This document shows, in pieces, positions 9,135-40,578 of a stretch of 64,000 nt of DNA (position 1 is the first letter of the stretch; every line of letters begins with the position of its first letter). This DNA is from Acidobacteriota bacterium (GTDB lineage Bacteria > Acidobacteriota > Vicinamibacteria > Vicinamibacterales > UBA8438): assembly GCA_009838525.1 (NCBI GenBank), contig VXRJ01000018.1, forward strand, positions 1-64,000, read 5' to 3'. The position numbers were made by a program, and so were the translations under genes. The notes under the pieces are model-generated. The model searched no databases, was not told the origin of the DNA, and was given only the letters and a program-made list of their open reading frames with translations.

Positions 9135-11246
9135 TCAGCCCGTCATCTCCCGGAGCATGGCCACGATGTCTTCCTCTACCTTCTTGATGTCGGCCTCGAT
9201 CTCCTCCAGCGGCCGGGGCGGGCGGTACTCGTAGAAGTACCGGTTGAAGTTGATCTCGTAGCCGACGAGCCCGACCTCGCCGTCCTGCGGATCCCGGCGC
9301 GTCGTGTCGATCCAGGCGTCGGGAACGTGGGGCCTTACCTCGCGTTCGAAGAACGACTCGACAGACTCCCGGAGAGGTACGTTCTCCGTGTCGCGCAGTT
9401 CCGGATCGGGTTCGGGGCGGCCCTCCCGATCGCGGCAGATTTCCGCCTTGGCGTTACGCTCCGACAGTGCGGAAAGAATCGCCTTCCGGATGGGGGCGGC
9501 GAGCTTGAGTTCAGCGTCTCGGGCGGCGCGGGAGAGCTCCTCGTTGAAGTCCGCCCGATCCAGAAACAGCTTGTCCGGCAGGCTCCGGAGCAGGGCCCGG
9601 ATGGCGTCTTGCTGCTGCCGGCCATCTTGTTCGTCGCGAGCCTTGGCGTCGCCCTTCTTGCGCGAGACAGCCAGGTTGGCGAAGGCGCTTTGGTCGTCCA
9701 CCCGTGCGATCCGCTCGGAGTTGGCCTGGAAATCGAGTCGTAACGGTCTCTCGACCGTGATCTTGCGGAACCCGAAGTGCGTAGTGGGGTAGACGCGGCT
9801 GACGACGGTCCCTCGCTCTTCGTCGTCCTGATCCACGTTGCGCGTGGCGCCGTCCTCGAAGTCGGCCAGCAGACGCAGAATGTCCTCCTTCCGCTCGAAC
9901 GGTACCTCGCGGCGCTTGGCGCCCAGACTCTTGCGCAGCAGGATCCAGAACGAGGTAGCGTCGATGAGCTGGACCATGCCGCGCCGTTCCGGCCGCTTGC
10001 GGTTCGTCAGCACCCAGACGTAGGTGGCGATGCCCGTGTTGTAGAAGAGCTGTTCGGGTAAGGCTATCAGCGCTTCGAGGAGGTCGTTCTCCAGGACCCA
10101 GCGCCGGATCTCGCTCTCGCCGCTGCCGGCGTCGCCGGTGAATAGCGGCGATCCGTTCATGATGATCGCCACGCGTGAGCCACCCTGGGACGGCTCGTTG
10201 ACGTGCGCCAGCATGTGCTGCAGGAACAGGAGTTGGCCGTCGCTGATCCGCGGCAGCCCCGGCCCGAAACGGCCGCTCCCACCCCGGTCGTGCTCGTTCC
10301 GCACGGCGTCTTGGTCGCGCTTCCAGTCCTTGCCGTAGGGCGGATTGGCGATCATGTAGTCAAAGCCGCGTCCGCCGTGCCGGTCGTTGGAGAGCGTGCT
10401 GCCGAACAGGATGTTCTCGGCGTCACGGCCGTCCGCGGACTTCATGAAGAGGTCGGACTTGCAGATGGCGAAGGTCTCCGGGTTGACCTCCTGCCCGAAC
10501 AGGTGGATGTCGGCGTCCGGGTTCACCGCCTCGCCGCGACGTTCGCCGTCGCGCGTCTCGCCGTCCGTGATGTGTTCCTTGGCGATGGTGAGCATCCCGC
10601 CCGAGCCGCAGCACGGGTCGTAGACGCTGAGCACGACCCCCTTGGTCCGCAGCCGGTCCTCGTCGCCTGCCAGCAGCAGGTCGACCATCAGGTGGACGAC
10701 GTCGCGGGGCGTGAAGTGCTCGCCGGGGTTTTCGTTCAGCGCCTCGTTGAACTTGCGAATGAGCTCTTCGAAGATGGTGCCCATCGCGGCGTTGTCGACC
10801 GCATCGGGGTGGAGGTTCACCTTCGGGTCGCCGAAGCGCTGGACGACCTGGAACAGGAGGCCAGCCTCGTCGAGTTTTGAGATCGTGTTGTCGAAATCGA
10901 ACTTCTCGAGCACCTCCCGCATGTTGGGACTGAAACCGGCTTTGTAGTTGCGCAGGTTCTGGGCGATGTGGGGAGCATCGGCCAGCAGCTTCTCGAAGTC
11001 GTAGCGCGACGTGTTGTAAAAGGCGAATCCGGAGGCGCCCTGGAGCAGTTGATCCGGGTTGTCGATCTTGCCCGCGTACTTGGCCTGGACATCGAGGACT
11101 CGCCGCTTGGTGGGAGCCAGCACGCAGTCGAGCCGGCGCAGCACCGTGAGCGGCAGGATCACGTCCTGGTACTTGCCCCGCTTGAAGGTGTCGCGGATCA
11201 GGTCCGCCACGCCCCAGATGAAGCTGACGATCTGGCTGTGGTTCAT
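9135..11246 (-). CDS. hsdM: Type I RM DNA methyltransferase subunit
   Basis: 703 residues. The N-terminal HsdM_N helical domain (IVSFIWGVADLIRDTFKRGK) is followed by an N6-adenine methyltransferase domain with the SAM-binding motif DPCCGSGG (210-217) and the catalytic NPPY (301-304). The C-terminus is long and ends in a coiled-coil-like helix (PLEEIEADIKKVEEDIVAML). It methylates adenine in the site chosen by HsdS. It is first in the RM operon but is separated from hsdS by abiEi and abiEii. There is no good Shine-Dalgarno. A TATAAA at 11266-11261 could be a -10 box 8 nt before the predicted start, but no well-spaced -35 is seen. Confidence 0.93.
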   Translation of the reverse strand: MNHSQIVSFIWGVADLIRDTFKRGKYQDVILPLTVLRRLDCVLAPTKRRVLDVQAKYAGKIDNPDQLLQGASGFAFYNTSRYDFEKLLADAPHIAQNLRNYKAGFSPNMREVLEKFDFDNTISKLDEAGLLFQVVQRFGDPKVNLHPDAVDNAAMGTIFEELIRKFNEALNENPGEHFTPRDVVHLMVDLLLAGDEDRLRTKGVVLSVYDPCCGSGGMLTIAKEHITDGETRDGERRGEAVNPDADIHLFGQEVNPETFAICKSDLFMKSADGRDAENILFGSTLSNDRHGGRGFDYMIANPPYGKDWKRDQDAVRNEHDRGGSGRFGPGLPRISDGQLLFLQHMLAHVNEPSQGGSRVAIIMNGSPLFTGDAGSGESEIRRWVLENDLLEALIALPEQLFYNTGIATYVWVLTNRKRPERRGMVQLIDATSFWILLRKSLGAKRREVPFERKEDILRLLADFEDGATRNVDQDDEERGTVVSRVYPTTHFGFRKITVERPLRLDFQANSERIARVDDQSAFANLAVSRKKGDAKARDEQDGRQQQDAIRALLRSLPDKLFLDRADFNEELSRAARDAELKLAAPIRKAILSALSERNAKAEICRDREGRPEPDPELRDTENVPLRESVESFFEREVRPHVPDAWIDTTRRDPQDGEVGLVGYEINFNRYFYEYRPPRPLEEIEADIKKVEEDIVAMLREMTG

Positions 11247-11336
11247 GGGTTGGTCTTGAGTTTATAGGCGCATAGTGTCGCCCTCGTTGGCAACATGTCG
11301 AACATCGGTCCTTGCGTTCGGTTGTCTCCCAGCGCG

Positions 11337-11942
11337 TCACGCGCCGTCATCAGCGAACAGCTTCAGCGCCTGCCGCTGTGCATCGGTTAGCGTCAGTAAC
11401 GCTTCGGGCGCTGCCTCCGGATAGATCCTCGCCGCCTCCCACTCGTGTTGCCGCACGTAGGCGGCGACGCCAAGTTTGCGCTTCTGAACCCGGAAGCGCT
11501 CATGAAGCGCTCGCGCCTCGAACAGGAACACCTCCGTGATCAGCCACGGCAGCGTTTGGCCCCGCGAAGTCGTCGCTGCCGCCTTCGGCCCGGTCATTAC
11601 CAGGTAGCAGTGCGGGATGCCATCGGGATTGATGTCGAGTATCCCCTCGCGCTTGCCATACCACTTCGCATTCACCGTCTTTCCGGCCAACCGACCGTCG
11701 GTAAATCGGCCGTCGAAGCCCTTCTGAGTCGCGGATTCCTCCAGCTTCACCGCAAAGATCTGCTGCGCGATCCACTCCCCGACATGACCCCTGAGAGCTG
11801 GACGGCCGATCAGCTCCGCAATCCTCTCGTCGATGGTGTTGCGGTTCGCCAAGAGGGAGGCCAGTTGCTGCAGTTCGCCGGGCGCTGCGGAGTCAGCAGA
11901 ATCGTCGCCAACGTTGTCAGCCGCTCTCCGCAACCGGGGCAC
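11337..11942 (-). CDS. Conserved protein, DUF6998-like, defence-island associated
   Basis: 201 residues from a GTG. The central part (IAELIGRPALRGHVGEWIAQ, then FDGRFTDGRLAGKTVNAKWYGKREGILDI) resembles proteins annotated as DUF6998. The pattern E-x-IA then KTVNAKWYGK could be a PD-(D/E)XK-like core, but that is inference. It starts 9 nt after the DUF1828-type gene ends, so the two form an operon reading towards hsdM. The function is unknown; position suggests a defence or nuclease-linked role. Confidence 0.6.
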   Translation of the reverse strand: MPRLRRAADNVGDDSADSAAPGELQQLASLLANRNTIDERIAELIGRPALRGHVGEWIAQQIFAVKLEESATQKGFDGRFTDGRLAGKTVNAKWYGKREGILDINPDGIPHCYLVMTGPKAAATTSRGQTLPWLITEVFLFEARALHERFRVQKRKLGVAAYVRQHEWEAARIYPEAAPEALLTLTDAQRQALKLFADDGA

Positions 11943-11951
11943 CTCTTCGAG

Positions 11952-12734
11952 CTACGCGACGCGCTTGAACAGCTTCCGGTCGAGATCGGCCCTGGACTCC
12001 AAAGACGAGATCATCTCGCCGCCGACGTCGGACAACCGCGCCAGATCGAGTCGCGGGATTTCCGATTGATCCTCGAAAACAAGAATGGACTCGAACTCCA
12101 GGTCCTGCCGATGGAAGTGCGAGAGCATGACCGTTGTCAGGCGCGCCTTGTCCCGGTTCGGCACCCCGTACAGGAACAAGGGAGTGTTGAACTTGCCCTC
12201 GATCCTGTAGTCGACGCGGTACGCCTCGGGGTTCGGAAGTTCATCCGGCAGGTAGTCCGCCTGCATCTTGTCCTCGTCGATCAGGCTCTTCAGTATCTCG
12301 GCGAGGTCGTCGTAGAACGTCGACTTGACCCGGGATCGGGACAGGAAGGTCAGGTCGTACACACGCGTCAGCGCCTGGCCGAAGCGGAATACCGCCTCCG
12401 GGAGTTTCTCGATGGGTGTGTCAAGGCGGAAGGTGCCCCCCTCTCGTTCCACTCCCATTTCGGCCACGATCCGTTCGAGCAACTGTCCTCTTGTGCCATC
12501 CAGAAACGCGTCGACATCGTGGTCGTAGCTGATGTGCATAAGCGTGTGACCGCGATCCGACAGACGCACGCCACCCACGCCGGCGTCGGACACGTGGATC
12601 GGAAACCTGTCTCCGTCGGGGAACTCGAAGTGCGTTCGCAACATCAGTGCGCCGTCGGGGCGCGTCGTTAGTTGCACGTCCGTGCACAGTCTCTCGCAGA
12701 GGCGTTTCTGCAGAGCGTCGACATCAAGATCCAT
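11952..12734 (-). CDS. DUF1828/DUF1829 domain protein
   Basis: 260 residues. The N-terminal half (DGALMLRTHFEFPDGDRFPI ... VSDAGVGGVRLSDRGHTLMH) is DUF1828-like. The C-terminal half (YRIEGKFNTPLFLYGVPNRD, MLSHFHRQDLEFESILVFED) resembles DUF1829. No enzymatic role is established for these domains, although they often occur near TA and mobile genes. The gene is paired with the DUF6998-like gene. A shrunken copy of this gene lies at 19744-19866, showing that a second copy once existed here. A HicB-like gene reads away from its 5' side. Confidence 0.75.
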   Translation of the reverse strand: MDLDVDALQKRLCERLCTDVQLTTRPDGALMLRTHFEFPDGDRFPIHVSDAGVGGVRLSDRGHTLMHISYDHDVDAFLDGTRGQLLERIVAEMGVEREGGTFRLDTPIEKLPEAVFRFGQALTRVYDLTFLSRSRVKSTFYDDLAEILKSLIDEDKMQADYLPDELPNPEAYRVDYRIEGKFNTPLFLYGVPNRDKARLTTVMLSHFHRQDLEFESILVFEDQSEIPRLDLARLSDVGGEMISSLESRADLDRKLFKRVA

Positions 12735-13184: not shown

Positions 13185-13802
13185 CTACTCAGGGACGCGG
13201 TTCGACCGCGTTCCGTGCGGCTTCTTGTGCCACGCGGACACCCACGCGGTGCCCAGCCGCGCCCAGGCGCTGGTGGCATGCGCGGCCCAGAGGGTCGGCT
13301 GCAGGGTCCAGTGGGCGACGTGGGCAGATCCGGTCTTCGGCTTGACGTAGGCGACAGCGGCCTTCGGCGGCAACAGCACGGATTCGCCGGTGAGGACCTC
13401 TTTGCCGTCCTGGTTGGTGCACGCGATGTTCAGCCGTAACCGGTTGCGCTCCGGCAGCCGTTCGACGACCTCCGCCCGCGCGGTGATGCGGTCGCCGAAG
13501 TAGACGGGACGGGTGAACTGGATCTGCAGGTTGACGTAGATGCAGCCGGGTCCGGGAAGCTGCGTGCCCAGGACGGCGGAGACGAGGCTGGCCGTCCACA
13601 TACCGGGCACGATGGGTTCCTTGAAGTGGGTTGAGGCGGCGTAGGCGCGGTCGTGGTGGATGGGGTTGCGGTCGCCGACGGAGTCGATGAATCCGGCGAC
13701 GTCACCGGGGCTGGCGACCCGCGTCAGTTCCGCGGAGTCGCCGACGGCGATTTCCTCTATCGGGAGTCCTCGCATCCGCGCCATCCATCCGTCACCGGCC
13801 AC
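13185..13802 (-). CDS. phaJ: MaoC-type (R)-specific enoyl-CoA hydratase, PhaJ-like
   Basis: 205 residues from a GTG; ATG codons at 13784 and 13775 are alternatives. It has the hot-dog hydratase motif DRNPIHHDRAYAA with catalytic Asp and His, and PIVPGMW where many relatives read HGM. It would convert beta-oxidation enoyl-CoA into (R)-3-hydroxyacyl-CoA for the neighbouring PHA synthase. The last 45 residues (VAHWTLQPTLWAAHATSAWA...) go beyond a normal PhaJ and look amphipathic, perhaps a granule-binding tail. It is last in the PHA cluster. A TATAAT at 13834-13829, in the 44-nt gap after phaE, might be an internal -10 but lacks a -35. Confidence 0.82.
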   Translation of the reverse strand: MAGDGWMARMRGLPIEEIAVGDSAELTRVASPGDVAGFIDSVGDRNPIHHDRAYAASTHFKEPIVPGMWTASLVSAVLGTQLPGPGCIYVNLQIQFTRPVYFGDRITARAEVVERLPERNRLRLNIACTNQDGKEVLTGESVLLPPKAAVAYVKPKTGSAHVAHWTLQPTLWAAHATSAWARLGTAWVSAWHKKPHGTRSNRVPE

Positions 13803-13846: not shown

Positions 13847-14512
13847 CTACGCGGGCTTCTTTGGTGTCTTGGCGCCGCCGGCGGGTTTCCGGCGGGTCGG
13901 CCGGCGGCGTGGCGCTGAGCCGGCCGCTTTGGGTGGCGCTGGGCCAGCCGCTTTGGGCGCCGCCGCGGGAGGGGTCGTGGCCGCAGGGGCCGCTGCCGCG
14001 GGCGGGCGAGCCGCGAGGGCGTCGAGCTTGTCGGCCAGCGACTCGATGCGATCTTCGAGATCCATCATCTGCCGCGAGAGGCCGACCACTTGGTCGCGGG
14101 ACGGGAGTCCGAGCGAGTCGATCACGGTCTTGGTCGTGCTCTCCGTCGCCTGCCTGGCCTTGGCCTGGACGTTGAGGAACTGGTCGAGGGTCTTGCCGAG
14201 GGCTTGGGCGAACTCCTCGGTCTGCATCACCTGCTCGAGGGCGCGGCTCCACGCCGCGAGCCATTCGTCGAGGAAGCGCTTCCACTGGGCGAGTACGTCG
14301 GGATCGATCGGTCCGGTCCCCGGGAACGGAGACGCGCCCGGCATGCCGAAGCTCGAGAACTGACGCCAGAACTGGGTGGGATCCGGTGGGTTGGGGACCT
14401 GGCCCTGGCTCGTCATCTGCTGGGCCGCCTTGACCCAGGCCTCGGTGCCGGCCTCCACCTGCTTCCGCCACATCGCGAACAGATCGTCGGGCGACGAAGT
14501 GGGTTCTGCCAT
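13847..14512 (-). CDS. phaE: Class III PHA synthase subunit PhaE
   Basis: 221 residues from the ATG at 14512, with GGGAGGA about 9 nt upstream. The helical body (FAMWRKQVEAGTEAWVKAAQ, QWKRFLDEWLAAWSRALEQV) and the coiled-coil segment around RQMMDLEDRIESLADKLDAL fit PhaE, the non-catalytic partner that activates class III PhaC. The last 55 residues are Ala/Pro-rich and end very basic (PRRRPTRRKP ... KTPKKPA), like the DNA- or granule-binding tails of phasin-type proteins. It lies 29 nt downstream of phaC. The low-complexity tail makes exact family assignment less certain than the position does. Confidence 0.82.
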   Translation of the reverse strand: MAEPTSSPDDLFAMWRKQVEAGTEAWVKAAQQMTSQGQVPNPPDPTQFWRQFSSFGMPGASPFPGTGPIDPDVLAQWKRFLDEWLAAWSRALEQVMQTEEFAQALGKTLDQFLNVQAKARQATESTTKTVIDSLGLPSRDQVVGLSRQMMDLEDRIESLADKLDALAARPPAAAAPAATTPPAAAPKAAGPAPPKAAGSAPRRRPTRRKPAGGAKTPKKPA

Positions 14513-14541: not shown

Positions 14542-15642
14542 CTACTGCGCTACGGCGGACTCGTGCGAGCGCGCCGCGAGCCAACTCGCCACGTGCGGCC
14601 AGCAGTCGCGGGACGCGCTCCGCCCGGCGATGAGCGAGATATGGCCGCCGGGAAGCTCCTTGTACTCCTTGTCCCGGCTGCCGACCAGGTCGACGAGCGC
14701 CCTGACGCCCGCTGGCGGGGCGATGTTGTCTTCGCTGGCGCCGACGACGAGCAGGGGACAGGTGATGCTGCCGACGTCGACGGGCCGTCCGTTGAGCCGC
14801 AGCGTGCCCTGGGCCAGGCGGTTCTCCTGGTAGAAGTCGGTGACCCACTGGCGGAAGAACTCGCCCGGGAACGGGACGTACTCCGAGCTCCACTTCCGGA
14901 GCGCCTTGTAGCCGGCGAGATAGCGGTCGTTCCAGGCGTTCCACCACAGGTTCAGGCCGGTGCTCATGTCCATCGTGGGGCGGAGCAGCTTGAAGCCGAG
15001 CTGCACCATCTCCGCCGGCATCTGCCCGAGGGTGTCGACCAGCTTGTGGACGTTGAAGTACCGGGGGGCGAGCCAGCGGCCGAAGAGGCCGGCGTGGGTG
15101 AAGTCGATGGGTCCGGCAAGGTTGACGAGGTTCTTCACCGGGAAGGCGGGGTGGGAGCCCAGAAAACTGACCGCGAGGGGGGCGCCCATGCAGTAGCCGA
15201 TGACGGAACAGGAGTCGGCCTCCGCGTGGGCCAGCAGCTTCTGGCCCATGCGGGGCAGGATGCGGGTGGAGCAGTCGGCGACCGTCAGATGGTCGTCCTC
15301 GGGACCGAAGACGCCCCAGTCGAGCAGGTAGAAGGGAAATCCCTGGCCCACCATGTACTCGATGAAGCTGGCCCCCGGCATCAGGTCGAAGACGGTGGGA
15401 CGGCTGATGCCGAGGTTGGGGACGAACAGCACCGGCGTGTCGTAACGGACGGGGCCGTCGTAGCGGTACAGGCGCGCCTTGTGCTTGCGGTAGACCTCCT
15501 CGCGGGGGCTCTGCGCCAGGACGGGCTCGTTCGATTCGGCCACGAGTTCGCCGACGTTGCGGACCCGTTGAACGGTGCGCTCCATCTCCGCCTGCCAGGC
15601 GGACCGGGCGCTCGCGTCACCCGCGGTGGATGGTTCCGACAT
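14542..15642 (-). CDS. phaC: Class III poly(3-hydroxyalkanoate) synthase
   Basis: 366 residues, the class III length. It polymerises (R)-3-hydroxyacyl-CoA on the surface of PHA granules. The lipase-like box GYCMG places the catalytic Cys at 151; Asp305 (ASEDNIAPP) and His334 (PGGHISLIAG) complete the triad. The alpha/beta-hydrolase core is well kept (PVLFVPNLGISRPTVFDLMP, FYLLDWGVFG). It lies between the phasin-like gene and phaE in one transcription direction. Pairing with PhaE supports class III rather than class I. Confidence 0.95.
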   Translation of the reverse strand: MSEPSTAGDASARSAWQAEMERTVQRVRNVGELVAESNEPVLAQSPREEVYRKHKARLYRYDGPVRYDTPVLFVPNLGISRPTVFDLMPGASFIEYMVGQGFPFYLLDWGVFGPEDDHLTVADCSTRILPRMGQKLLAHAEADSCSVIGYCMGAPLAVSFLGSHPAFPVKNLVNLAGPIDFTHAGLFGRWLAPRYFNVHKLVDTLGQMPAEMVQLGFKLLRPTMDMSTGLNLWWNAWNDRYLAGYKALRKWSSEYVPFPGEFFRQWVTDFYQENRLAQGTLRLNGRPVDVGSITCPLLVVGASEDNIAPPAGVRALVDLVGSRDKEYKELPGGHISLIAGRSASRDCWPHVASWLAARSHESAVAQ

Positions 15643-15705: not shown

Positions 15706-16242
15706 CTACGCGGCGGCCTTGCCGGTCGACTTCGCCTTCGCGGTGGTCGTGGTCGCGGTCGGTGCGGCGGCGGCGGCATTCTCGGTCCACATCTGCGCCC
15801 ACGCCAACTGGGCCGCGCCGATCTTCTCCACCGACTCCTGCCACGTCGCGAACAGCTTCTGGTTCTCGTCGTCGATGGTGCCGAGCATCTTCACCGGCAC
15901 CGCCTTGCGGACCATGCCGAAGTAGCTTTCCCACAACTCGGCCTGGGCCTCGGTCCAGCGGGCGCTGAGGGTCTGGGTCTGCGTGGCCCAGTCCGCCAGG
16001 TCCGAGGGGATGCCGGGGACGGCCGACGCGCTGTCGCCGAAGCTCTTCATCGCCGCGTTCTGCGACTCGATGCCGTTCTTGACGGTGGCTTCCCAGGTGT
16101 CCACGGCCTTCCGCCAAGTCTCGGCCAACTGCGCCTGGCTGGCCTGCTGGCCGGCGGCCTCGGCCCAGATGCCCCAGATCTTCTTCTGCGTGTCGGTCAA
16201 CGCCTGCAACGTGTCGTCGGTTTGCTTGGTCCAGTTGATCAT
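15706..16242 (-). CDS. Phasin-like PHA granule protein
   Basis: 178 residues, almost all helical, with many Trp, Gln and Ala (for example TQKKIWGIWAEAAGQQASQA and FATWQESVEKIGAAQLAWAQ) and an Ala/Thr/Lys tail. This make-up, size and position directly before phaC are those of phasins, which coat granules and limit their fusion. Sequence alone does not fix the family. It has its own well-spaced promoter and a 93-nt leader, as expected for an abundant protein. Confidence 0.75.
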   Translation of the reverse strand: MINWTKQTDDTLQALTDTQKKIWGIWAEAAGQQASQAQLAETWRKAVDTWEATVKNGIESQNAAMKSFGDSASAVPGIPSDLADWATQTQTLSARWTEAQAELWESYFGMVRKAVPVKMLGTIDDENQKLFATWQESVEKIGAAQLAWAQMWTENAAAAAPTATTTTAKAKSTGKAAA

Positions 16243-16414: not shown

Positions 16415-16774
16415 TCAGTCGGCGTCGTTCAACTTGCGGAACGACTCGTACATCTCGACGAGCACTTCGCGCTGGCGGGCCGACAGGTAGGGATCGTGGC
16501 GTATCGCCTCGATGACGTCGCCCGCCTCGCCTTCGGTCGGATCGATGATGCCGGCCTGGGCGTAGAGCGTCTCGGCGGACATCTCCAGGCCGTCGGCGAG
16601 CGCCTTGAGGACGAAGCTGCTGGGGTTCCGATAACCGCGCTCGATCTGGCTGAGATAGGCGTTCGAGATGCCGCAGGCGTCGGCGAGTTGGCGGACGGAC
16701 AGATGCCCCAGCTCGCGCTGGCGGCGGATGAACTCGCCGAGGCCGGTGTCGGGGCCGGGTCGCTTGACGGTCAT
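16415..16774 (-). CDS. XRE-family regulator in PHA cluster
   Basis: 119 residues from the ATG at 16774. A Cro/C1-type HTH (LSVRQLADACGISNAYLSQI then ERGYRNPSSFVLKALADGL) is followed by a short C-terminal region (ARQREVLVEMYESFRKLNDA). It lies 23 nt after phaB and before the phasin promoter, so it likely plays the role that PhaR plays in other bacteria, matching phasin and synthase expression to polymer. No PhaR homologue is seen here. The reading frame runs further upstream but without protein-like sequence. Confidence 0.85.
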   Translation of the reverse strand: MTVKRPGPDTGLGEFIRRQRELGHLSVRQLADACGISNAYLSQIERGYRNPSSFVLKALADGLEMSAETLYAQAGIIDPTEGEAGDVIEAIRHDPYLSARQREVLVEMYESFRKLNDAD

Positions 16775-16797: not shown

Positions 16798-17538
16798 CTA
16801 CATCTCCAGGCCGCCGTTGACGGCCACGACGGTGCCGGTAATGTACCCCGCCTCGTCTTCGAGCAGGAACCGCACGCAACGGGCCACTTCGTCAGCCTGC
16901 CCCAGGCGGCCCACCGGGATGCGGCCGATAATCGTGTCGAGGACCGGCGCGGGGATCGAGGCGACCATCTCGGTTTCGATGAACCCGGGGGCGACGCAGT
17001 TGACGGTGATCCCCTTGCGGGCCACCTCCAGCGCGAGGCTCTTGGTGAAGCCGAACTGGCCGGACTTCGACGCGGCGTAGTTCGCCTGCCCGATATTGCC
17101 GCTCTGGCCGATGACGGAGCTGATGTTGACGATGCGGCCGAACTGGCGCTCGACCATGTGGTCGAGCACCGCCTTGGTCATGTAGAACGCGCCGGACAGG
17201 TTCACGCGGAGCACGGCGTGCCAGTTCTCGACGGTCATCCGGCGCACCGTCTTGTCGACGTTGATGCCCGCGTTGTTGACCAGGAAGTCGATACGCCCGT
17301 GCTCGTCGAGCACTTCCTGGACCACCCGCTGGCACGCCTCGGGCTCGGCGACGTTGCCCTGGTGCAGCGAGATGGAGCGGCCTTCCGCGCGCAGGCCGGC
17401 CGCGAGTTCTTCCGCCGCGTCCGACCCCCGGTTGTAGCCGGCCGCCACGTGGGCGCCGGACTCGGCCAGTGATTTCGTGATGGCGGCGCCGATCCCGCGG
17501 CATCCTCCGGTGACGACGGCGACCTTTCCTGCAAACAT
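16798..17538 (-). CDS. phaB: Acetoacetyl-CoA/3-ketoacyl reductase, PhaB/FabG-type SDR
   Basis: 246 residues. A short-chain dehydrogenase with cofactor loop TGGCRGIG, NNAG, catalytic Ser (NISSVIGQSG) and YAASKSG (Y-x3-K), ending VNGGLEM. It reduces 3-ketoacyl-CoA to the (R)-3-hydroxyacyl-CoA used by PhaC. GGAGAGG precedes the ATG by a normal distance. FabG acting in fatty-acid synthesis cannot be told apart by sequence alone; the PHA context favours PhaB. It follows the KAS III-like gene by 26 nt. Confidence 0.88.
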   Translation of the reverse strand: MFAGKVAVVTGGCRGIGAAITKSLAESGAHVAAGYNRGSDAAEELAAGLRAEGRSISLHQGNVAEPEACQRVVQEVLDEHGRIDFLVNNAGINVDKTVRRMTVENWHAVLRVNLSGAFYMTKAVLDHMVERQFGRIVNISSVIGQSGNIGQANYAASKSGQFGFTKSLALEVARKGITVNCVAPGFIETEMVASIPAPVLDTIIGRIPVGRLGQADEVARCVRFLLEDEAGYITGTVVAVNGGLEM

Positions 17539-17564: not shown

Positions 17565-19520
17565 TCAACTTGCCAGGGCCGCGCCGACTTCGGTGGACGT
17601 GGAGATGTGGGGTAGCGCCGGCGACAGGGTGCGGTCCGACTCCGGCGGCGCGGTTTGTTCCTCGGCGACGACGGCCGGATCGATGCGCAGCACGGCGTAA
17701 CCGGCCACCGCACCGGCCCCGAAACCGGGCGTGAACACGCGGGTCGGGGCCGAGATGACGCCGTCGCGCACCGCATCGTGGATCGCCAGCGGAATGCTGG
17801 CCGCCGACGTGTTGCCGACCCGGGCGATGTTGAAGTACATCCGGTCGCGGCCGATGCCCGCCTGCTCGGCCAGGTCGATCACCATCCGCTTGTTGGCCTG
17901 GTGCGGGACGATCAGGTCGATGGCCTCGATGAGGGTTCCCGGCCGGCCGTCGGGATGGGGCAGGGCCTGCAGCTCCTCGATCATCTGGTCGAGGTAGCGG
18001 CTCACCAGCGCCCTGACCTCCGGGCCGTAGACGGTGATGTCGCAGCCGAACTCGGTGTTGGGCCAGATGATGGAGTTCACCTGGCTGACGGGGCCGCTGG
18101 CGTAGGTCTGCAGCACGTCCACATCGCCGGGCGCGCCCGCTTCGGCCGGGGCGACGACCAGTCCGGCCGCCGCGTCGCCGAAGATCATGCGCGACGTGCG
18201 CACGCTGCCCACCTTGTCGGAGAACTTCTCGGCGCAGACGAGCAGGATCGGACGCTCGACTTCCTGCATGATGCGAACGGCGTCCGCGAGGCCGTAGGGA
18301 AAGCCGGCGCAGGCCGCGACGAGGTCGACCGACGTGTGGGTCTGGAACATGCCGAGCTGCCCGGACAGCCAGGTGGCGGCCGAGGGCAGCAGGCGGGGGT
18401 TCGTGCAGGTGCAGAAGAGGACCGCCCCGATCTCCTCCGGGGAGCGGCCGGCCCGATCCAGCGCGCTCACCGCCGCGTCGAGGGCGAGGTTCTCGAGGCC
18501 GCCCTCGGTATAGCACCGGCTCTCGATGCCGGTCTTGGCGGCGATCTGCGCCGCGCTCATGGGCGACCAGCTCGAGGCCGAGTTGCGGACGATGTCGTCG
18601 TTGGTGCACAGGATCTCGCCGCGGCGCACGGCGAGGGCCTCGATGCGCGGCTGCACCGCGAACTGCGACCGGACCTGCACGGCGGGGAGCGGCGCGGCCG
18701 GCTGTCGCGGCGGGCGGGCCGGAGGCGGAGTGGGACGCCGCCGAGCGCCGTTCTTCACGCGTCGAATGAAGTCCAGCACGTCGGGCGTGCGGGGGTGGTA
18801 GATGACCACGACGTCATCGTCCTTCAGCCCGCCCACCGGGACCAGCCCGGTGTCGGAACGGTCCCACGGATACTGGTTGTGCAGGGTCATCGCCCAGCGC
18901 CGCAGGGCCTCGAGCTCCGGCACGCTCTCGTGGCAGTCGAGGATGTCGTCCAGGCTGAACCGGGGATAGTCCGGATCGAACGATCCGAGCCGGTACACGA
19001 GCTGGGAGCCGCCGGCGACCGCCTCGGCGACGGTCGGCTTGATGGCGGGAAGGTCGGTCGCATGGTGCCGCTTGTGGCGGAACACGTCGAAGAGCATGCG
19101 GTACAGCTCGTCCTCGACATCGGCCGACCACGTGGCGGGAAGGTGGGGGTAGCAGGACTCGACCGCCGCCACCTTGCGCGGGCCGTCCTCCCACGGGGTC
19201 AGCGCGGGGAGGAAGATGTCGTTGCGTCGCCGGGCCACGTCCCGCCAGCGGGTCGGCCGCTTCTCGTACATCGTGATCACGTAGCGGTTCATCCAGAACA
19301 GGTGCAGGCCCAGATCGCGCAGCAGCTCGTACCGATTGGCGTACCCGCCCGATTCCGCGCGCGCCGCGATGTCCGACCCGGTCGGCGCCTTGGCTTCGAA
19401 GTCGCGCCGAACGATGGCGGCGAGGTCGTCGATGGTGTCGATGGACGAGAAATCCGGCTCCGGAAAGAAGTTGGACGGAAAGACGAGCCGCCGGTGCGAG
19501 TTCACGACGAACGGTTTCAT
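17565..19520 (-). CDS. KAS III-like ketoacyl synthase with large unknown N-terminal region
   Basis: 651 residues, about twice the length of FabH. Residues from about 290 form a thiolase-fold ketoacyl synthase III with the full triad: Cys404 (VAACAGFPYG), His540 (VPHQANKRM) and Asn570 (RVGNTSAASIP). Residues 1-260 are a separate domain I do not recognise (WMNRYVITMYEKRPTRWRDV, DVFRHKRHHATDLPAIKPTV), joined by a Pro/Arg linker at about 258-285. It is first in the cluster before phaB, so it may make 3-ketoacyl-CoA for reduction to PHA monomer, replacing a PhaA thiolase, which is not present here. That role is inference. The extra domain has no transmembrane segment or signal. Confidence 0.8.
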   Translation of the reverse strand: MKPFVVNSHRRLVFPSNFFPEPDFSSIDTIDDLAAIVRRDFEAKAPTGSDIAARAESGGYANRYELLRDLGLHLFWMNRYVITMYEKRPTRWRDVARRRNDIFLPALTPWEDGPRKVAAVESCYPHLPATWSADVEDELYRMLFDVFRHKRHHATDLPAIKPTVAEAVAGGSQLVYRLGSFDPDYPRFSLDDILDCHESVPELEALRRWAMTLHNQYPWDRSDTGLVPVGGLKDDDVVVIYHPRTPDVLDFIRRVKNGARRRPTPPPARPPRQPAAPLPAVQVRSQFAVQPRIEALAVRRGEILCTNDDIVRNSASSWSPMSAAQIAAKTGIESRCYTEGGLENLALDAAVSALDRAGRSPEEIGAVLFCTCTNPRLLPSAATWLSGQLGMFQTHTSVDLVAACAGFPYGLADAVRIMQEVERPILLVCAEKFSDKVGSVRTSRMIFGDAAAGLVVAPAEAGAPGDVDVLQTYASGPVSQVNSIIWPNTEFGCDITVYGPEVRALVSRYLDQMIEELQALPHPDGRPGTLIEAIDLIVPHQANKRMVIDLAEQAGIGRDRMYFNIARVGNTSAASIPLAIHDAVRDGVISAPTRVFTPGFGAGAVAGYAVLRIDPAVVAEEQTAPPESDRTLSPALPHISTSTEVGAALAS

Positions 19521-23082: not shown

Positions 23083-24627
23083 CTACAACAATCCCACCAG
23101 TGGGCCGACGACGATCAGTAGCGCCGTCATCAAGACCACCCACACGGCGCTGATGACAAGCCCCGCCGGCAGCATGTCGAACATCCGATAGTAGCCCCGG
23201 CTGTAGGTGACGAGGGGCACGGCGTCGAGCGGCAGCAGGAAGGCGCAGGAGGCGGTGAAGATGACGGGCAGCGCGTAGAGGGCCGGGTTCACGCCCGCCG
23301 CGGCGCCGAGGACCATGATGGGCGGGATCATGACGGCGTTGATGACCGGCGCGATGGGCAGCATGAGGTGGATGACGACGGTGAAGGCGCTGATGGCGGC
23401 GATGAGGGCGACGGCGTTCCAGTCGGCGAGGCCGCCGAGGGCGGATTCGGCGAGCCAGGTGGCGAGACCGGTCTGCGACGACGCCTGGCCGAGCGACGTG
23501 ACGCCGCCGATGACCATCAGCGTGTCCCAGCCGGTGACCCTCTGAATCTCCTTCCAGGTGAACAGGCCGATGCCGGGGAGGAACATCGCCACCGCGCCGA
23601 CGACGGCCACGAGGAAGGTGTCGAACACGGGCAGCCACGTGCTCGCGATCCAGAGGGTGAGCATGGCGCTCATGATCACGACCACCTTCCATTCGTCGCG
23701 GCTGACCGGGCCCAGGCGGCGTCGCTCGTCGTGAATCTCCTCGAGATCGCCGATGGACGCGATCTCCGGCGGAAAGAACTTCACCAGCACCCAGGCCGCC
23801 ACCGGCAGCAGGATGGCCACCATCGGGATGCCGATCGCCATCCAGTGGAGGAAGGGAACGCGCTCGCCGCCCGCCTGCTCGATCATGACCAGGCCGAGCA
23901 GGTTGATGGAGCTGCCGGCCGGCGTGCCGACGCCGCCGATGAGGGCCGCGATCGGGATCCCGAGCATCACCGCCCGGCCGAAGCGCGATCCGGGCCGCAG
24001 CCCCAGCTTGTCGAGGATGCCGACCGCGATGGCCATGAAGATGGCGGCGGCGGGCACGTCGGAGATCACCATCGAGATGGCGCCGGTGCCGATCATGAAG
24101 ACGTAGACGGCGCGCGTGGCGTCGGTGCCGGCCCGCGCGATGAGCCACAGCGCGAAGCGGCGGGCGAGGCCGGTCTTCACCCAGGCGTGGGCGATGGCGA
24201 ACATCACGAGCACGAAGAAGAAGACGCTGCTCATGAAGTTGGCGGCGGCCGCGCCGAAGATGGCGCCGGGGGTGGGCGGCCGGCCGGTGACGAGCGACGT
24301 GAGCCCGAAGATGGGCTGCAGGGCGACGGCGAGCAGGGCGGTGACGGCGATCGGCAGCGCCTCGGTGGCCCACAGCACGAGGATGCCGGCGAACAGCGCG
24401 GCGAGCCGGTGCGCCTCCGGGGGCATGCCGTCGGGCGTCGGGAGGATGAGGATGAAGGCGGTGAGTGCGGCGGCGCCGATGAGGCCGGGGGTGTTGGTGG
24501 ATGCCGGCCCGGACGCCGGCGCACCGGGAGATGCCGGCCTGGAGGCCGGCGCACCTGTGTGGGGCCTCGGTCCGCCGGCCTCCGGGCCGGCATCCGGCGT
24601 ACCTGCGGGTACGTCGTCGGAGGTCAT
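23083..24627 (-). CDS. DASS/SLC13-family carboxylate transporter
   Basis: 514 residues from the ATG at 24627, which overlaps the pcaC stop as ATGA. Around 12 hydrophobic segments are visible. Family marks include GGVGTPAGSSINLLG (the SNT-type substrate and sodium motif region) and its inverted repeat partner GGVTSLGQASSQTG. The first 48 residues are a Pro/Ala/Gly repeat region encoded by repeated GATGCCGGCC-like DNA and are probably disordered. Being the last gene of the pca operon, it is likely to import protocatechuate or a related carboxylate; that is inferred from position only. Confidence 0.85.
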   Translation of the reverse strand: MTSDDVPAGTPDAGPEAGGPRPHTGAPASRPASPGAPASGPASTNTPGLIGAAALTAFILILPTPDGMPPEAHRLAALFAGILVLWATEALPIAVTALLAVALQPIFGLTSLVTGRPPTPGAIFGAAAANFMSSVFFFVLVMFAIAHAWVKTGLARRFALWLIARAGTDATRAVYVFMIGTGAISMVISDVPAAAIFMAIAVGILDKLGLRPGSRFGRAVMLGIPIAALIGGVGTPAGSSINLLGLVMIEQAGGERVPFLHWMAIGIPMVAILLPVAAWVLVKFFPPEIASIGDLEEIHDERRRLGPVSRDEWKVVVIMSAMLTLWIASTWLPVFDTFLVAVVGAVAMFLPGIGLFTWKEIQRVTGWDTLMVIGGVTSLGQASSQTGLATWLAESALGGLADWNAVALIAAISAFTVVIHLMLPIAPVINAVMIPPIMVLGAAAGVNPALYALPVIFTASCAFLLPLDAVPLVTYSRGYYRMFDMLPAGLVISAVWVVLMTALLIVVGPLVGLL

Positions 24628-25013
24628 GAACGGCCCTCGATTTCGTCCCGCAGTTGGCGGGCGATGTTGACGGCGGTGAGGGCGGCGGGCGCGCCGCAGT
24701 AGATCGCCTGCTGGAGGACGATCTCGTTGACGTCGTCCATCGTGAACCCGCCCTCGGTGAGCGCCGCCCGCACGTGGATGCGGTACTGGTCCCACTGCCG
24801 GAGGGCGATCTGCGTCCCGATTACCAGGATGCGGCGCGTGCGGTGGTCCAATCCCGGCCGCGTCCAGATCTCGCCCCACGCGTAGCGCGTGATCAGGTCC
24901 TGAATCTCCGCCGTGACGTCGGTCGTGTCGGCGACGGCCCGGTCCACGTAGGCGTCGCCCAGAATCTTCCGTCGGATGGCCGTGCCTGCCGCGTGCCGCT
25001 GCTTTTCGTCCAT
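24624..25013 (-). CDS. pcaC: 4-carboxymuconolactone decarboxylase
   Basis: 129 residues, the usual length. Typical sequence includes YAWGEIWTRPGLDHRTRRIL and HVRAALTEGGFTMDDVNEIV then QQAIYCGAPAALTAVNIARQ. It converts 4-carboxymuconolactone to 3-oxoadipate enol-lactone in the protocatechuate branch. It lies 65 nt after pcaB and overlaps the transporter start by 4 nt. Confidence 0.92.
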   Translation of the reverse strand: MDEKQRHAAGTAIRRKILGDAYVDRAVADTTDVTAEIQDLITRYAWGEIWTRPGLDHRTRRILVIGTQIALRQWDQYRIHVRAALTEGGFTMDDVNEIVLQQAIYCGAPAALTAVNIARQLRDEIEGRS

Positions 25014-25078
25014 TGCTGCCTCAGTCTGTCAGGAACTCGATGACTGCCGCGTTGAAGGCGGCGGGGAGATGTGCATCG

Positions 25079-26440
25079 TCATGCGTCGGATGCGGCGACT
25101 CGTGCGAGCACGCGGTCGATATAGTCGCGGGTCGCGCCAAGGTAGTTGTCCGGCGACAGCCGCCGGGCGATTTCCGCTCGGTCGAGATGCTGCGTGACGA
25201 GCGGATCGTCGCCGAGCACGTCGGCGAACGGGCGTCCCTCGGCCGCCGCGCGCCGGCAGGCGGCGGCGATACAGGCGTGCGCCTCGTGCTTGCCGACGGA
25301 CTTCGCCAGCGTCATGGCGATGGACTCGGCCAGCAGCAAGCCGCCGGACGCCTCCGCGTTGGCGCGCATGCGATCCGTGTCGACCTGAAGGCCGTCCAGC
25401 GCGTCGGCGGCCGCCCGGGTTCCGCTGGTCGCGCAGATCACGAGGTCGGGCAGGGTATCCCACTCGACCTGCCAGCCGCCGAGTCCGCGCTCGTGTTCCT
25501 GGATCATCGCGCCGAGCAGGGTGGCGACCAGCCCCGGCGCGCGACCGGCGGCGGCGAGGGCGACGGAGGACGCGACCGGGTTCTGCTTCTGCGGCATCGT
25601 CGACGATCCGCCGCGTCCCGGCGCCGTCGCCTCGGACGCCTCGCCGACCTCGGTCTGAGCGAGCAGGGCGATGTCGCGTCCGATCTTCCCGCACGTGCCG
25701 GCCGCGATGCCGAGGGCGGAGGCGAGCTGTGCGAACCGGTCGCGGTGGGCGTGCCAGGGGATGTCCGGCACGGGCAGGTCGAGCCGGGCGGCCAGCCGCT
25801 CGGTGACGGCGAGGCCCTGGGATCCGAGCGACGCCAGCGTGCCGGTGGCGCCGCCGAACTGGAGAACGAGCGCGTCGTCGAGGGCGGACTGCAAGCGGCG
25901 CCGGGACCGGTCCATAGCGTCGGCCCAACCCGCCGCCTTGAGCCCGAACGTCACCGGCGTTGCTTGCTGCAGCCACGTGCGGCCGGCCATCGTGGCGTCG
26001 CGGTGGCGGTGGGCGTGGGCGGCGGCGGCGCGCACGCCCTGCGCCAAGTGGTCGATGGCGCCCGGAACCGCCGCCCGGAGCTGGAGCAGCAGGCCGGTAT
26101 CCAGGATGTCCTGGCTGGTCGCCCCCCAGTGGACGTAGCGCGCCGCGTCCGCGTCGGATTTCGCCACCCGCGCGGTCAGATGCCGCACCACCGGAATGAC
26201 CGGATTGCCGGTCTCCGTCGCCTCGGCCTTGAGAACGTCCAGGTCGTACAGCTCGGCGCGGGCCGCCGCCTGAATGGGCGCCACGCAGCTTGCCGGCGCC
26301 ACGCCGGCGTCGGCCTGCGCCGCCGTCAGGGCCGCCTCGACGTCCAGCATCGCCTGGAGCTGGGCGCGCCCGGAGAAGCACTCCGCGGTGTCCGCGTTGT
26401 GCAGGACGCGAGCGTGGAGGCGTGTGGCGCGGTCAGACAT
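25079..26440 (-). CDS. pcaB: 3-carboxy-cis,cis-muconate cycloisomerase
   Basis: 453 residues of the fumarase/aspartase superfamily. The signature GGSSTMPQKQNPVAS is intact, and HWGATSQDILDT carries the expected His. It cyclises 3-carboxymuconate, made by PcaGH, to 4-carboxymuconolactone. Its first 8 nt overlap the end of pcaG. Adenylosuccinate lyase-like enzymes share the fold, but the neighbours settle the call. Confidence 0.93.
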   Translation of the reverse strand: MSDRATRLHARVLHNADTAECFSGRAQLQAMLDVEAALTAAQADAGVAPASCVAPIQAAARAELYDLDVLKAEATETGNPVIPVVRHLTARVAKSDADAARYVHWGATSQDILDTGLLLQLRAAVPGAIDHLAQGVRAAAAHAHRHRDATMAGRTWLQQATPVTFGLKAAGWADAMDRSRRRLQSALDDALVLQFGGATGTLASLGSQGLAVTERLAARLDLPVPDIPWHAHRDRFAQLASALGIAAGTCGKIGRDIALLAQTEVGEASEATAPGRGGSSTMPQKQNPVASSVALAAAGRAPGLVATLLGAMIQEHERGLGGWQVEWDTLPDLVICATSGTRAAADALDGLQVDTDRMRANAEASGGLLLAESIAMTLAKSVGKHEAHACIAAACRRAAAEGRPFADVLGDDPLVTQHLDRAEIARRLSPDNYLGATRDYIDRVLARVAASDA

Positions 26441-26993
26441 CGAAGAACACCGTTTCTCCCGGTCCCTGGAGCGTGATCGTGTGCGTGTAGCGCCCGTCGT
26501 CCCGACGCGCCGCGACCAGCGTCGGCCGGCGGTCCGGCGCCACCGCGGCCAGGATCGGGTCGTCGCCGTTCGCCGGCTCGTCGGAGAAGTAGATCCGCGT
26601 GACGAGGCGCGAGAGCAGCCCGCGCGCGAAGAGTCCCACCAGTAGATGCGGCGCCTGGGGCTGGCCGTCGGGTCCGGGCACGGGCCCCGGCTTGATGGTC
26701 TTCAGGGAAAAGCCGCCCGCACCGTCCGTACGCACGCGCCCGAACCCGCCGAACGCGGGGTCCGGTCCCGTGCAGCGGGCGTCGTCCGGATGGTTGTAGC
26801 AGCCTGCCGCGTTTGCCTGCCAGATCTCGATGAGGGCATCGGGCACCGGCTGGCTCGCGCCGTCGTGGACCGTCGCCTCGATGACGATGCGCTCGCCGGG
26901 AACGTCGGCGCCCGCCAGCGTCAGGCGCCCCTGCTCGGGGACGAGGATCGCGAAGAAGGGGCCGACGGTCTGGAAGGGGGTGAGGGCGAGCAT
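26433..26993 (-). CDS. pcaG: Protocatechuate 3,4-dioxygenase alpha subunit
   Basis: 186 residues. Intradiol dioxygenase fold with TPFQTVGPFF at the start, ALIEIWQANAAGCYNHP and PHLLVGLFARGLLSRLVTRI then YFSDE. The alpha subunit lacks the iron ligands and pairs with PcaH. It starts 59 nt after pcaH ends and overlaps pcaB. Confidence 0.93.
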   Translation of the reverse strand: MLALTPFQTVGPFFAILVPEQGRLTLAGADVPGERIVIEATVHDGASQPVPDALIEIWQANAAGCYNHPDDARCTGPDPAFGGFGRVRTDGAGGFSLKTIKPGPVPGPDGQPQAPHLLVGLFARGLLSRLVTRIYFSDEPANGDDPILAAVAPDRRPTLVAARRDDGRYTHTITLQGPGETVFFDV

Positions 26994-27052
26994 GGCGCTG
27001 GCGCCGGTCTACCGCTCGGTCTCCATCCGGCGCGCGGTCGCCCTGCCGGGGC

Positions 27053-27784
27053 TCACGCCGGTCCCTCCATCGGGGTCGCGTCCCGGCCGCGCAGGACGAT
27101 GTCGAAACGGTAGCCGAGGGCGCGCCCCGCCTCCGTCACGTCGAGATCGAAGGCCGCCACCATCCGCTGGCGGCCACGCTCGGTGGGGACCGCGTTGAAG
27201 ATGGGATCGAAGGCCAACAGCGGGTCGCCGGGGAAGTACATCTGGGTCACGAGGCGCGTCAGGAAGCTGCGCCCGAAGACGGAGAAGTGCACGTGCGCGG
27301 GGCGCCAGGCGTTGTCGTGGTTCCCCCAGGGGTATGCGCCGGGCCGGATGGTCGTGAAGTGGAACCGACCGTCCGCGTCCGTGAGCAACCGGCCGGCGCC
27401 GCTGAAGTTCGGATCGAGCGGGGCGTCGTGGGTGTCGAGGGCGTGGGCGTAGCGGCCGGCGGCGTTCGCCTGCCAGACTTCTACCAGGGTATCCGCCACC
27501 GGCCGGGCGTCTTCGTCCAGAACGCGGCCGCCGATGACGATGCGTTCGCCGAGGGGCTCGCCGGCGTGCTGGCGGGTCAGGTCGGCGTCGTGCGGCCCGA
27601 CCGCACCGTCCCCGTAGCCGTAGACCGGGCCCGTCAGCTCCGACAGCGTCTGCGGAATCACCACGAGCGGCCGGGCGGGGTGGCGCAGCCCGGTGGACCG
27701 GTAGTCCGGCACGTCGTTCGGGGGATGGGCGTCGGCCGGCGGTCGGCGATACGGGAGAATCTGGGACGCCACGGCGCGCGACAA
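27053..27784 (-). CDS. pcaH: Protocatechuate 3,4-dioxygenase beta subunit
   Basis: 243 residues. The catalytic non-haem iron subunit that opens the ring of protocatechuate between its two hydroxyl carbons. Ligand regions are visible: Tyr in WQANAAGRYAHALDTH, Tyr in IRPGAYPWGN, and the His pair in RPAHVHFSVFG. It is the first gene of the operon pcaHGBC-transporter. The 69-nt gap upstream is shared with the divergent avtA. No LysR or IclR-type pca regulator is seen nearby. Confidence 0.95.
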   Translation of the reverse strand: MSRAVASQILPYRRPPADAHPPNDVPDYRSTGLRHPARPLVVIPQTLSELTGPVYGYGDGAVGPHDADLTRQHAGEPLGERIVIGGRVLDEDARPVADTLVEVWQANAAGRYAHALDTHDAPLDPNFSGAGRLLTDADGRFHFTTIRPGAYPWGNHDNAWRPAHVHFSVFGRSFLTRLVTQMYFPGDPLLAFDPIFNAVPTERGRQRMVAAFDLDVTEAGRALGYRFDIVLRGRDATPMEGPA

Positions 27785-27813
27785 TCGTAGCGGACTTCAG
27801 TCGGGCCCGCACG

Positions 27814-27842
27814 TTGCCGGGAGGGGTCCCCGGTCGTACTAT
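27814..27842 (+). promoter_or_regulatory. Promoter of avtA with very short leader
   Basis: TTGCCG (27814-27819), exactly 17 nt, then TACTAT (27837-27842). The predicted start is 27849, 5 nt before the ATG. No Shine-Dalgarno fits in that leader. Confidence 0.5.
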
Positions 27843-27853
27843 CGTTAGCGGAA

Positions 27854-29113
27854 ATGGACATTTCGGCGTACGGGCGGCGGCTGACGAGCGACACGGGTCC
27901 GCTGTCGCTGATGAAGGATCTCGGCGACGCCGCGGAGGCCGGCGGCTCGCTGATGAACCTTGGCGGCGGCAGTCCCAGTCTGATCCCTGCCGCCGAAGCA
28001 CTGTTCCGCCGCCAGATGGAGGCCCTGCTGCAACGGGAGGGGTCGTTCGAACGGGCCATCGGCCTCTACGGCGGCCCCGACGGCGACCGCGACTTCGCCC
28101 GCGTCCTCGCCGGTTTCCTCCGGCGCGAGCTCGGCTGGGACATCAGCGAGCGCAACATCGCCCTGACCAACGGCAGCCAGTCCGCCTTTCTGCCGCTGTT
28201 CACCCTGCTGGCCGGGCCGATGGGCGACGGCCGCCCGCCGCGGCGCATCCTGCTGCCGCTCGCGCCGGAGTACATCGGCTACGCGGACCTGGGTCTCGTC
28301 CCGGGGCTGTTCACGGCGCGGCACTCGATCATCCATGAGCTCGACGATCAGCTCTTCAAGTACGGGGTGGACCTGGCGGGGCTCGACGGGGTGGAGGACA
28401 TCGGCGCGATTTGCGTGTCGCGCCCGACCAACCCGACGGGAAACGTGATCACTGACGCGGAGGTCGAGGAGCTCGGCGCCATCGCCCGCGCCCGCGACGT
28501 GCCGCTGATTCTCGACACCGCCTACGGCGCGCCGTTTCCCGGCATCGTGTTCGGCGAGTCGACGCCGGTCTGGAACGAGAACACGGTCGTCTGCATGAGC
28601 CTGTCGAAGCTCGGGCTGCCCGGCTTCCGCACCGGCATCGTGATCGCGAACGAGGAGATCATCGAGGCGCTGGCCGCCGCCACCGCCATGTACTGTCTAT
28701 CGCCGGGGCGGCTCGGCCCCGCATTCGGCGCCGAGCTGATCCGGAGCGGCGAGCTGATGCCGCTGGTCCGCGACGTCATCCGGCCGCACTACGCCGGCCG
28801 CGCCACGCGCGCCCTCGACCGGCTCCGCGACGGCCTGCGCGGCTATCCGGCGCGCATCCACACGCCGGAGGGCGCCTTCTTCCTCTGGCTCTGGATGCCG
28901 GGGCTGCCCATCACCAACGCCGAGCTCTACGAACGGCTCAAGCAGCGCGACGTCATCGTCGTCTCCGGCCACTATTTCTTCCCGGGGCTCGAGGACGACG
29001 ACTGGCTGCACAAGCGCGAGTGCGTCCGCATCAGCTTCGCCGACGACTGGGGACGCACGGAGCGCGGGATCGACATCATCGCGGACGAGGTGCGGCGCGC
29101 CTACGACGGCTAA
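27854..29113 (+). CDS. avtA: Valine-pyruvate aminotransferase
   Basis: 419 residues, collinear with E. coli AvtA (417). It transfers amino groups between valine, alanine and their 2-oxo acids. Matches include NIALTNGSQSAF, PLAPEYIGYADLGL, ICVSRPTNPTGNVITD and the PLP lysine in CMSLSKLGLPGFR, then TPEGAFFLWLW. Fold type I, cytoplasmic. The gene is divergent from pcaH, and its stop overlaps the stop of the convergent cyclase gene (29110-29113). Confidence 0.93.
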   Translation: MDISAYGRRLTSDTGPLSLMKDLGDAAEAGGSLMNLGGGSPSLIPAAEALFRRQMEALLQREGSFERAIGLYGGPDGDRDFARVLAGFLRRELGWDISERNIALTNGSQSAFLPLFTLLAGPMGDGRPPRRILLPLAPEYIGYADLGLVPGLFTARHSIIHELDDQLFKYGVDLAGLDGVEDIGAICVSRPTNPTGNVITDAEVEELGAIARARDVPLILDTAYGAPFPGIVFGESTPVWNENTVVCMSLSKLGLPGFRTGIVIANEEIIEALAAATAMYCLSPGRLGPAFGAELIRSGELMPLVRDVIRPHYAGRATRALDRLRDGLRGYPARIHTPEGAFFLWLWMPGLPITNAELYERLKQRDVIVVSGHYFFPGLEDDDWLHKRECVRISFADDWGRTERGIDIIADEVRRAYDG

Positions 29114-40427: not shown

Positions 40428-40578
40428 GGAGCTTCGACCGCCTGTCTCGAAGGACCCGCGCCGGTCGCGCACCGAAACGCTGATAGATTACTGCGGGAAG
40501 CGTTACAGGCTTGACTTGCCCCGCGTCGGGGCGCATTCTCGTCACGGTACATTCCATCGTTCATCGAAGGAGCAGGTG

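Follow-up and report, generated by a model that had tools for sequence, protein, structure and literature searches.

PHB synthesis is taught as a sequence of thiolase, reductase and synthase whose first step is both unfavourable and reversible: in the canonical PhaCAB system, PhaA condenses two molecules of acetyl-CoA and supplies acetoacetyl-CoA to PhaB and PhaC. A different condensation is carried out by NphT7 of Streptomyces sp. CL190, a KAS III homologue with a Cys-His-Asn triad that joins acetyl-CoA and malonyl-CoA irreversibly, sits in a mevalonate cluster and is proposed to reject ACP for want of an arginine needed to bind it (PMC5432608). NphT7 also carries an AGGSR motif, proposed to recognise CoA, which occurs in some ordinary KAS III enzymes as well and so is not exclusive to it (PMC5432608). 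According to work cited in PMC10530661, NphT7 has replaced PhaA in sugarcane engineered for PHB. On the side of malonyl-CoA supply, a eukaryotic-type acetyl-CoA carboxylase (ACC) is the essential fatty-acid ACC of Saccharopolyspora erythraea, and the Saccharopolyspora multidomain enzyme of this design carboxylates both acetyl- and propionyl-CoA (PMC6491548).

Here we describe a gene that joins a KAS III condensing enzyme to a 263-residue N-terminal domain (N-domain) in the window, by which we mean the whole 64,000-nucleotide stretch of Vicinamibacterales DNA that was analysed. Judging from sequence and gene neighbourhood, the fusion is probably an acetoacetyl-CoA synthase of KAS III type that takes the place of PhaA in the synthesis of PHA (probably PHB or PHBV). 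Like PhaA, it would supply acetoacetyl-CoA to PhaB and PhaC; unlike PhaA, it belongs to another gene family, and its condensation would be decarboxylative and malonyl-CoA-dependent rather than reversible. The pathway logic would be identical to that of the NphT7-PhaB-PhaC sugarcane cited in PMC10530661, which is man-made, whereas the operons considered here are natural and include a dedicated carboxylase. NphT7 chemistry and the artificially built pathway are thus already known. In the open-access literature, we found no description of a natural carboxylase-KAS III-PhaB-PhaC operon or of a PHB cluster of KAS III or NphT7 type, nor of Rhodococcus or Geodermatophilus PHA with ACC, of FabH in pha clusters or of the N-domain, which appears to be undescribed. 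The fusion gene has the following parts:

17565..19520, minus strand: fusion gene, apparently novel N-terminal domain plus KAS III condensing enzyme, 651 aa (ORF and translation, KAS III families, conserved in the best 80 of 125 loci)
18732..19520, minus strand: N-terminal domain, residues 1-263, without Pfam family or fold match (model pLDDT 92, pTM 0.88; Pfam, Foldseek, VIA-align and viral library searches)
18669..18731, minus strand: variable Pro-rich linker, residues 264-284 (amino acid identity 38-71%, against 69-92% in the flanking domains)
17676..18668, minus strand: KAS III domain, residues 285-615 (Pfam, FabH structures, alignment)
18309..18311, minus strand: catalytic Cys404 codon (alignment of 44 members)
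17901..17903, minus strand: catalytic His540 codon (alignment of 44 members)
17886..17888, minus strand: Arg545 codon, aligned with the ACP-binding Arg249 of E. coli FabH (alignment; Thr in 35 of 44 relatives)
17811..17813, minus strand: catalytic Asn570 codon (alignment of 44 members)

An earlier note on this DNA had placed a double-length ketoacyl synthase with an intact triad at 17565-19520. The gene does lie at these coordinates, on the minus strand, and the extra length is the N-domain in front of KAS III. Pfam (ACP_syn_III and ACP_syn_III_C), NCBIfam KAS III models and solved FabH structures all match residues ~320-613, with PF08541 and PF08545 above their gathering thresholds, and an alignment of diverse members located the triad as C404, H540 and N570, invariant in 44/44, as in the KAS III superfamily. 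A full-length AlphaFold2 model of the fusion (pLDDT 83.8, pTM 0.84) has the FabH fold in its C-terminal half (Foldseek E 2.5e-22, TM 0.85 on FabH length). The protein nevertheless fails the curated FabH models, scoring 137.2 bits with TIGR00747 (cut-off 292.1) and 170.5 with NF006829 (cut-off 249). Because an ordinary FabH, only 31% identical to the fusion, is encoded elsewhere in the genome, the fusion is not the housekeeping enzyme.

The N-domain is a genuine protein domain. All 80 kept homologues (the best 80 of 125) start at the same point and run into the KAS domain, some leaving the contig end, and among 149 genomes from the same order as the window we found no close KAS relative without the N-domain, save one remnant. 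Its identity to family relatives is 88-90% in five and 69% in a sixth, and most substitutions are at third codon positions, with a rate close to that of the KAS half, whereas linker and tail show free variation. An artefact or chance ORF is ruled out by conservation in 80 loci and by this third-position pattern. The earlier note had recognised nothing in the extra ~260 residues, and this impression was upheld: residues 1-263 of the window protein have no Pfam match, and across 47 diverse members there was no convincing family match either. Structure prediction, which the note had proposed as a check on a known fold of unrelated function, gave a confident model of the domain alone (pLDDT 92, pTM 0.88). 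Searches with it returned nothing usable from the PDB by Foldseek (best E 2.8), from Foldseek's 198 top chains by VIA-align (best Z 2.4) or from a viral structure library (best E 1.3), and a search for the domain on plasmids gave no match. We dismissed as chance the best hit of an N-domain profile to PDB sequences (E 0.035 over 57 residues), and low hhalign probabilities led us to reject the ideas that the N-domain is a degenerate KAS copy (0.1) or corresponds to the N-terminal region of class I PhaC (0.2). The model fits a new fold, of which missing matches are not proof. Since no known fold matched in the searches made, nothing marks the N-domain as the loading domain that the note had imagined; most likely, and this is a guess, it docks to partners (carboxylase, reductase or granule) or helps to select a CoA-bound acceptor. 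As a well-folded, widely conserved 260-residue family without annotation, it is a clear structure target.

The fusion heads a PHA cluster, whose remaining genes are as follows, in order from the fusion:

16798..17538, minus strand: phaB-like SDR reductase, acetoacetyl-CoA / 3-ketoacyl reductase (TIGR01829 298.7 bits, cut-off 302.1)
16415..16774, minus strand: XRE-type HTH regulator (HTH_3; start inferred from the part conserved in relatives)
15706..16242, minus strand: phasin / PhaE-like protein (weak PHA_synth_III_E match below cut-off; conserved in the cluster)
14542..15642, minus strand: phaC, PHA synthase of class III type with a GYCMG box (TIGR01836 match at E 5e-75, under the cut-off of that model)
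13847..14512, minus strand: phaE/phaR-like synthase subunit (PF09712 above cut-off)
13185..13784, minus strand: phaJ-like MaoC hydratase (PF01575; start inferred from the ORF)

The phaB-like ATG lies 26 bp past the fusion stop codon and has a ribosome-binding site, GGAGAGG. Synthase, subunit, reductase and phasin thus occur together, as in a PHA cluster; several scores are under curated cut-offs, and the set is conserved in relatives. Neither the ORF list nor Pfam gave a PhaA beta-ketothiolase in the cluster, which therefore is not a canonical phaCAB set. The earlier note had already described the fusion as heading a PHA cluster free of PhaA, and we confirmed this, though three clear thiolases are encoded elsewhere in the genome; these could supply acetoacetyl-CoA and count against the acetoacetyl-CoA synthase reading. 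So does the lack of a carboxylase gene in the window's own cluster, as does the lack of a close homologue of the eukaryotic-type carboxylase in its genome, where the search gave only a weak 29% CT match. PhaB-like reductases, moreover, are hard to separate from FabG by sequence, which also weighs against it. Elsewhere in the window, not far from the PHA cluster, positions 24624-28001 hold an aromatic-ring degradation cluster, with genes resembling those for two protocatechuate dioxygenase subunits, carboxymuconolactone decarboxylase and a PcaB-type lyase; 9135-12734 (minus strand) holds a gene like a type I restriction-modification methylase (HsdM) with its neighbours, and 40339-44565 encodes a cytochrome / virginiamycin-B-lyase-like protein and, after it, one like a PQQ-type dehydrogenase.

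In the route we propose, acetyl-CoA carboxylase would spend ATP to make malonyl-CoA, the enzyme being a dedicated single-chain neighbour in many relatives and, in the window's organism, presumably the cell's ordinary carboxylase. Cys404 would take the acetyl group from acetyl-CoA, and His540 and Asn570 would decarboxylate malonyl-CoA and condense it with the acetyl group to acetoacetyl-CoA, with release of CO2. The neighbouring PhaB-like reductase would then form (R)-3-hydroxybutyryl-CoA, which the class III-type PhaC/PhaE synthase would polymerise. Through the decarboxylation, the supply of monomers would become irreversible and ATP-driven, in contrast to the unfavourable thiolase reaction. 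If this is true, PHA potential would have to be read differently from genomes and organisms without phaA re-scored, PHA formation at low acetyl-CoA would be explained, and ready-made operons would be at hand for what engineers have assembled with NphT7.

A genome-wide scan gave 125 candidate loci, the best 80 of which were kept as the basis of all neighbour counts; a weak match in G224 (E 3e-5) was discarded as spurious, with no corresponding ORF at that place. The best 80 of 125 loci include Vicinamibacterales, Geodermatophilaceae, Pseudonocardia, Rhodococcus, Citricoccus, Rokubacteria, Desulfuromonadales and Thermoleophilia, and the N-domain-KAS III fusion is found in at least five major bacterial groups. 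We searched the flanks of these 80 loci by tblastn for carboxylase, PhaB and PhaC. A single-chain acyl-CoA carboxylase was present in 57/80, at 300 bp or less in 47, a PhaB-like gene in 53/80, PhaC in 36/80 and at least one of the three in 65/80 (all for the best 80 of 125), raw locus counts that overstate independence because Geodermatophilaceae are over-represented. Actinobacteria make up most of the set, and the carboxylase pattern recurs in Desulfuromonadales (8/9 loci) and Thermoleophilia; Vicinamibacterales loci have PhaB/PhaC neighbours. Clear thiolase matches occur in just two of the best 80 of 125 loci (L090 and L098, both Desulfuromonadales).

The neighbouring carboxylases are of two designs. 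In Geodermatophilus, Pseudonocardia and Thermoleophilia they are proteins of ~1830-1890 aa in the order BC-BCCP-ACC_central-CT, ACC_central being typical of eukaryotic ACC, and in actinobacteria they directly adjoin the fusion (L078:4476-9968, L081:11940-17603, L088:4344-9917). The bacterial multidomain ACC SACE_4237 has the same domain plan and is assigned to fatty acids, and the text describing it never uses ketosynthase, ketoacyl or polyhydroxy (PMC6491548). In the Desulfuromonadales locus L099 (5321-9892), the carboxylase is a 1523-aa single chain laid out AccA-AccD-AccC-BCCP, unlike the eukaryotic type, within a one-strand operon phaE-phaC-phaB-carboxylase-KAS fusion, whose predicted products are everything needed from acetyl-CoA to PHB via malonyl-CoA by the proposed route. 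Two carboxylase designs beside the same enzyme suggest repeated association with malonyl-CoA supply, and a PHA role is suggested for some bacterial eukaryotic-type ACCs so far assigned to fatty acids. Furthermore, in another acidobacterial class (L018, 10265-12952, minus strand), N-domain, KAS III and a C-terminal PhaB-like reductase are joined in a single protein of 895 aa. Upstream of its gene lies one resembling an acyl-CoA carboxylase carboxyltransferase (best match mmdA); downstream are phasin, phaR-like and phaC genes.

The earlier note's idea that a KAS III may provide PHA monomers in place of PhaA thus has good contextual support, from PhaB-like and PHA synthase neighbours in several phyla, from the carboxylase neighbours, which the note had not foreseen, and from this distant KAS III-reductase fusion. 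The linkage of homologues to PHA genes on which the note's reading depends is for the most part present (a PhaB-like gene in 53/80 and PhaC in 36/80 of the best 80 of 125), with a local exception in Rokubacteria, where 0/10 loci have PHA neighbours, a result that counts against an acetoacetyl-CoA synthase for PHA. In these Rokubacteria, PhaC is encoded elsewhere in 6/7 tested genomes, 60-63% identical to the window's and adjoined by phaE- and phaJ-like genes. The fusion stands alone in L051, L055, L067, L085 and others, for instance between amidase-like and amidohydrolase-like genes in L085, and genomes with such a lone fusion have phaC-phaE-phaJ and a phaB-like gene at other places. Taken further, and here we are roughly evenly divided with some leaning to doubt, a dedicated single-chain carboxylase, N-domain-KAS III, PhaB and PhaC may make up a natural ATP-driven, thiolase-free PHB route in many phyla, in which the N-domain would tether the enzymes to one another and malonyl-CoA and acetoacetyl-CoA would be handed on, not lost to fatty-acid synthesis or thiolysis.

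To place the active site, we compared it with those of FabH and NphT7. The fusion shares with FabH the fold, the triad and the overall KAS domain; it differs in its double length and, across the fusion family, in having Glu, Gln, Asp or Ala at the FabH Trp32 position (residue 325) and Lys at Arg36. The position of FabH Arg249, which we take to be the arginine missing from NphT7, is Thr in 35, Asn in 4, Arg in 3, Lys in 1 and Ser in 1 of 44 members, so that Arg is missing in 41/44. Thr in 35/44 favours CoA over ACP as acceptor in the wider family. The earlier suggestion of CoA instead of ACP thus fits the wider family, and the window protein may use either, since it keeps Arg545 together with its lineage; this arginine is a point against an NphT7-like reading. 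The AGGSR motif, likewise against it, was found in 0/44 members. Otherwise the likeness to NphT7 comprises KAS III homology, the triad, the proposed reaction and, in most relatives, the missing ACP-binding arginine; for NphT7 no 260-residue N-domain is described, and the fusion lies with PHA and ACC genes rather than in a mevalonate cluster. Our best reading from these comparisons is that the fusion would work like NphT7, on contextual evidence, without being assigned to the NphT7 family.

Arg545 also speaks for the main rival, in which the fusion is a second FabH using malonyl-ACP to initiate fatty-acid synthesis, carboxylase and FabG-like reductase serve fatty acids, and PHA genes are near in some lineages only. 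It is the main rival because one actinobacterium, S. erythraea, depends on an ACC of this kind for its fatty acids (PMC6491548), and because the reductase, which scores alike as FabG or acetoacetyl-CoA reductase, could be FabG. We nonetheless consider fatty-acid initiation unlikely: FabH cut-offs are far from reached (137 against 292 bits and 170.5 against 249), a separate FabH is present in the same genome, and the Arg249 position is Thr in 35/44. On inspection, which was unsystematic, we noticed no acyl-carrier-protein, FabD, FabF or FabZ among the neighbours. In addition, phaC, phaE or phasin genes are neighbours in several phyla, and PhaC co-occurrence is near-perfect in the window's family, where the fusion is intact in 7 of 28 genomes, all 7 with the cluster phaC, and both are missing from 19/28; these genomes are related, so any probability is merely indicative. 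The other two PhaC-bearing genomes of the family have, in one case, a truncated fusion remnant upstream of phaB and are, in the other, incomplete.

A special starter (propionyl-CoA, a branched or another acyl-CoA), with the fusion making 3-hydroxyvalerate or another co-monomer and a thiolase elsewhere providing acetoacetyl-CoA, also seems improbable. The thiolases elsewhere in the genome would allow it, the fusion family has Ile, Leu or Met where FabH has the pocket residue Phe87, and the actinobacterial multidomain ACC accepts acetyl- and propionyl-CoA alike (PMC6491548); most of the evidence would agree with a propionyl-CoA starter for 3-hydroxyvalerate. Starter choice, however, is not readable from sequence, the clusters almost never include a thiolase (2/80; best 80 of 125), and the complete phaE-phaC-phaB-ACC-fusion operons seem to need nothing more for 3HB. 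That acetoacetyl-CoA instead serves the ethylmalonyl-CoA pathway, in which PhaB is also used, or mevalonate, with PHA linkage secondary, is very improbable: many actinobacterial loci do have ACC and phaB and no phaC in the fetched flank (phaC 36/80 overall; best 80 of 125), but PhaC/PhaE/phasin cluster directly with the fusion in Acidobacteriota, Desulfuromonadales and others, and a PhaC-like match is present in 11/12 tested genomes, although the weaker matches may be other alpha/beta hydrolases.

We return to the acetoacetyl-CoA synthase reading with gene order in the window's relatives. The order fusion-phaB-XRE-phasin-phaC-phaE-phaJ is kept in L010 and L012 and, to the contig limits, in L013 and L014, while L015 has a similar cluster with phaB placed first. 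The G073 fusion is separated by ~53 kb from the remaining cluster, which counts against this reading. In G058 (L118:4233-4625), the last 131 fusion residues are left upstream of phaB and the contig goes on for ~750 bp, so that either the gene has been truncated or the assembly is broken there. Finally, the N-domain, KAS and phaB of the window recur at 91% identity on a contig labelled Alphaproteobacteria (L020), which probably reflects a binning or label error, or else recent transfer.
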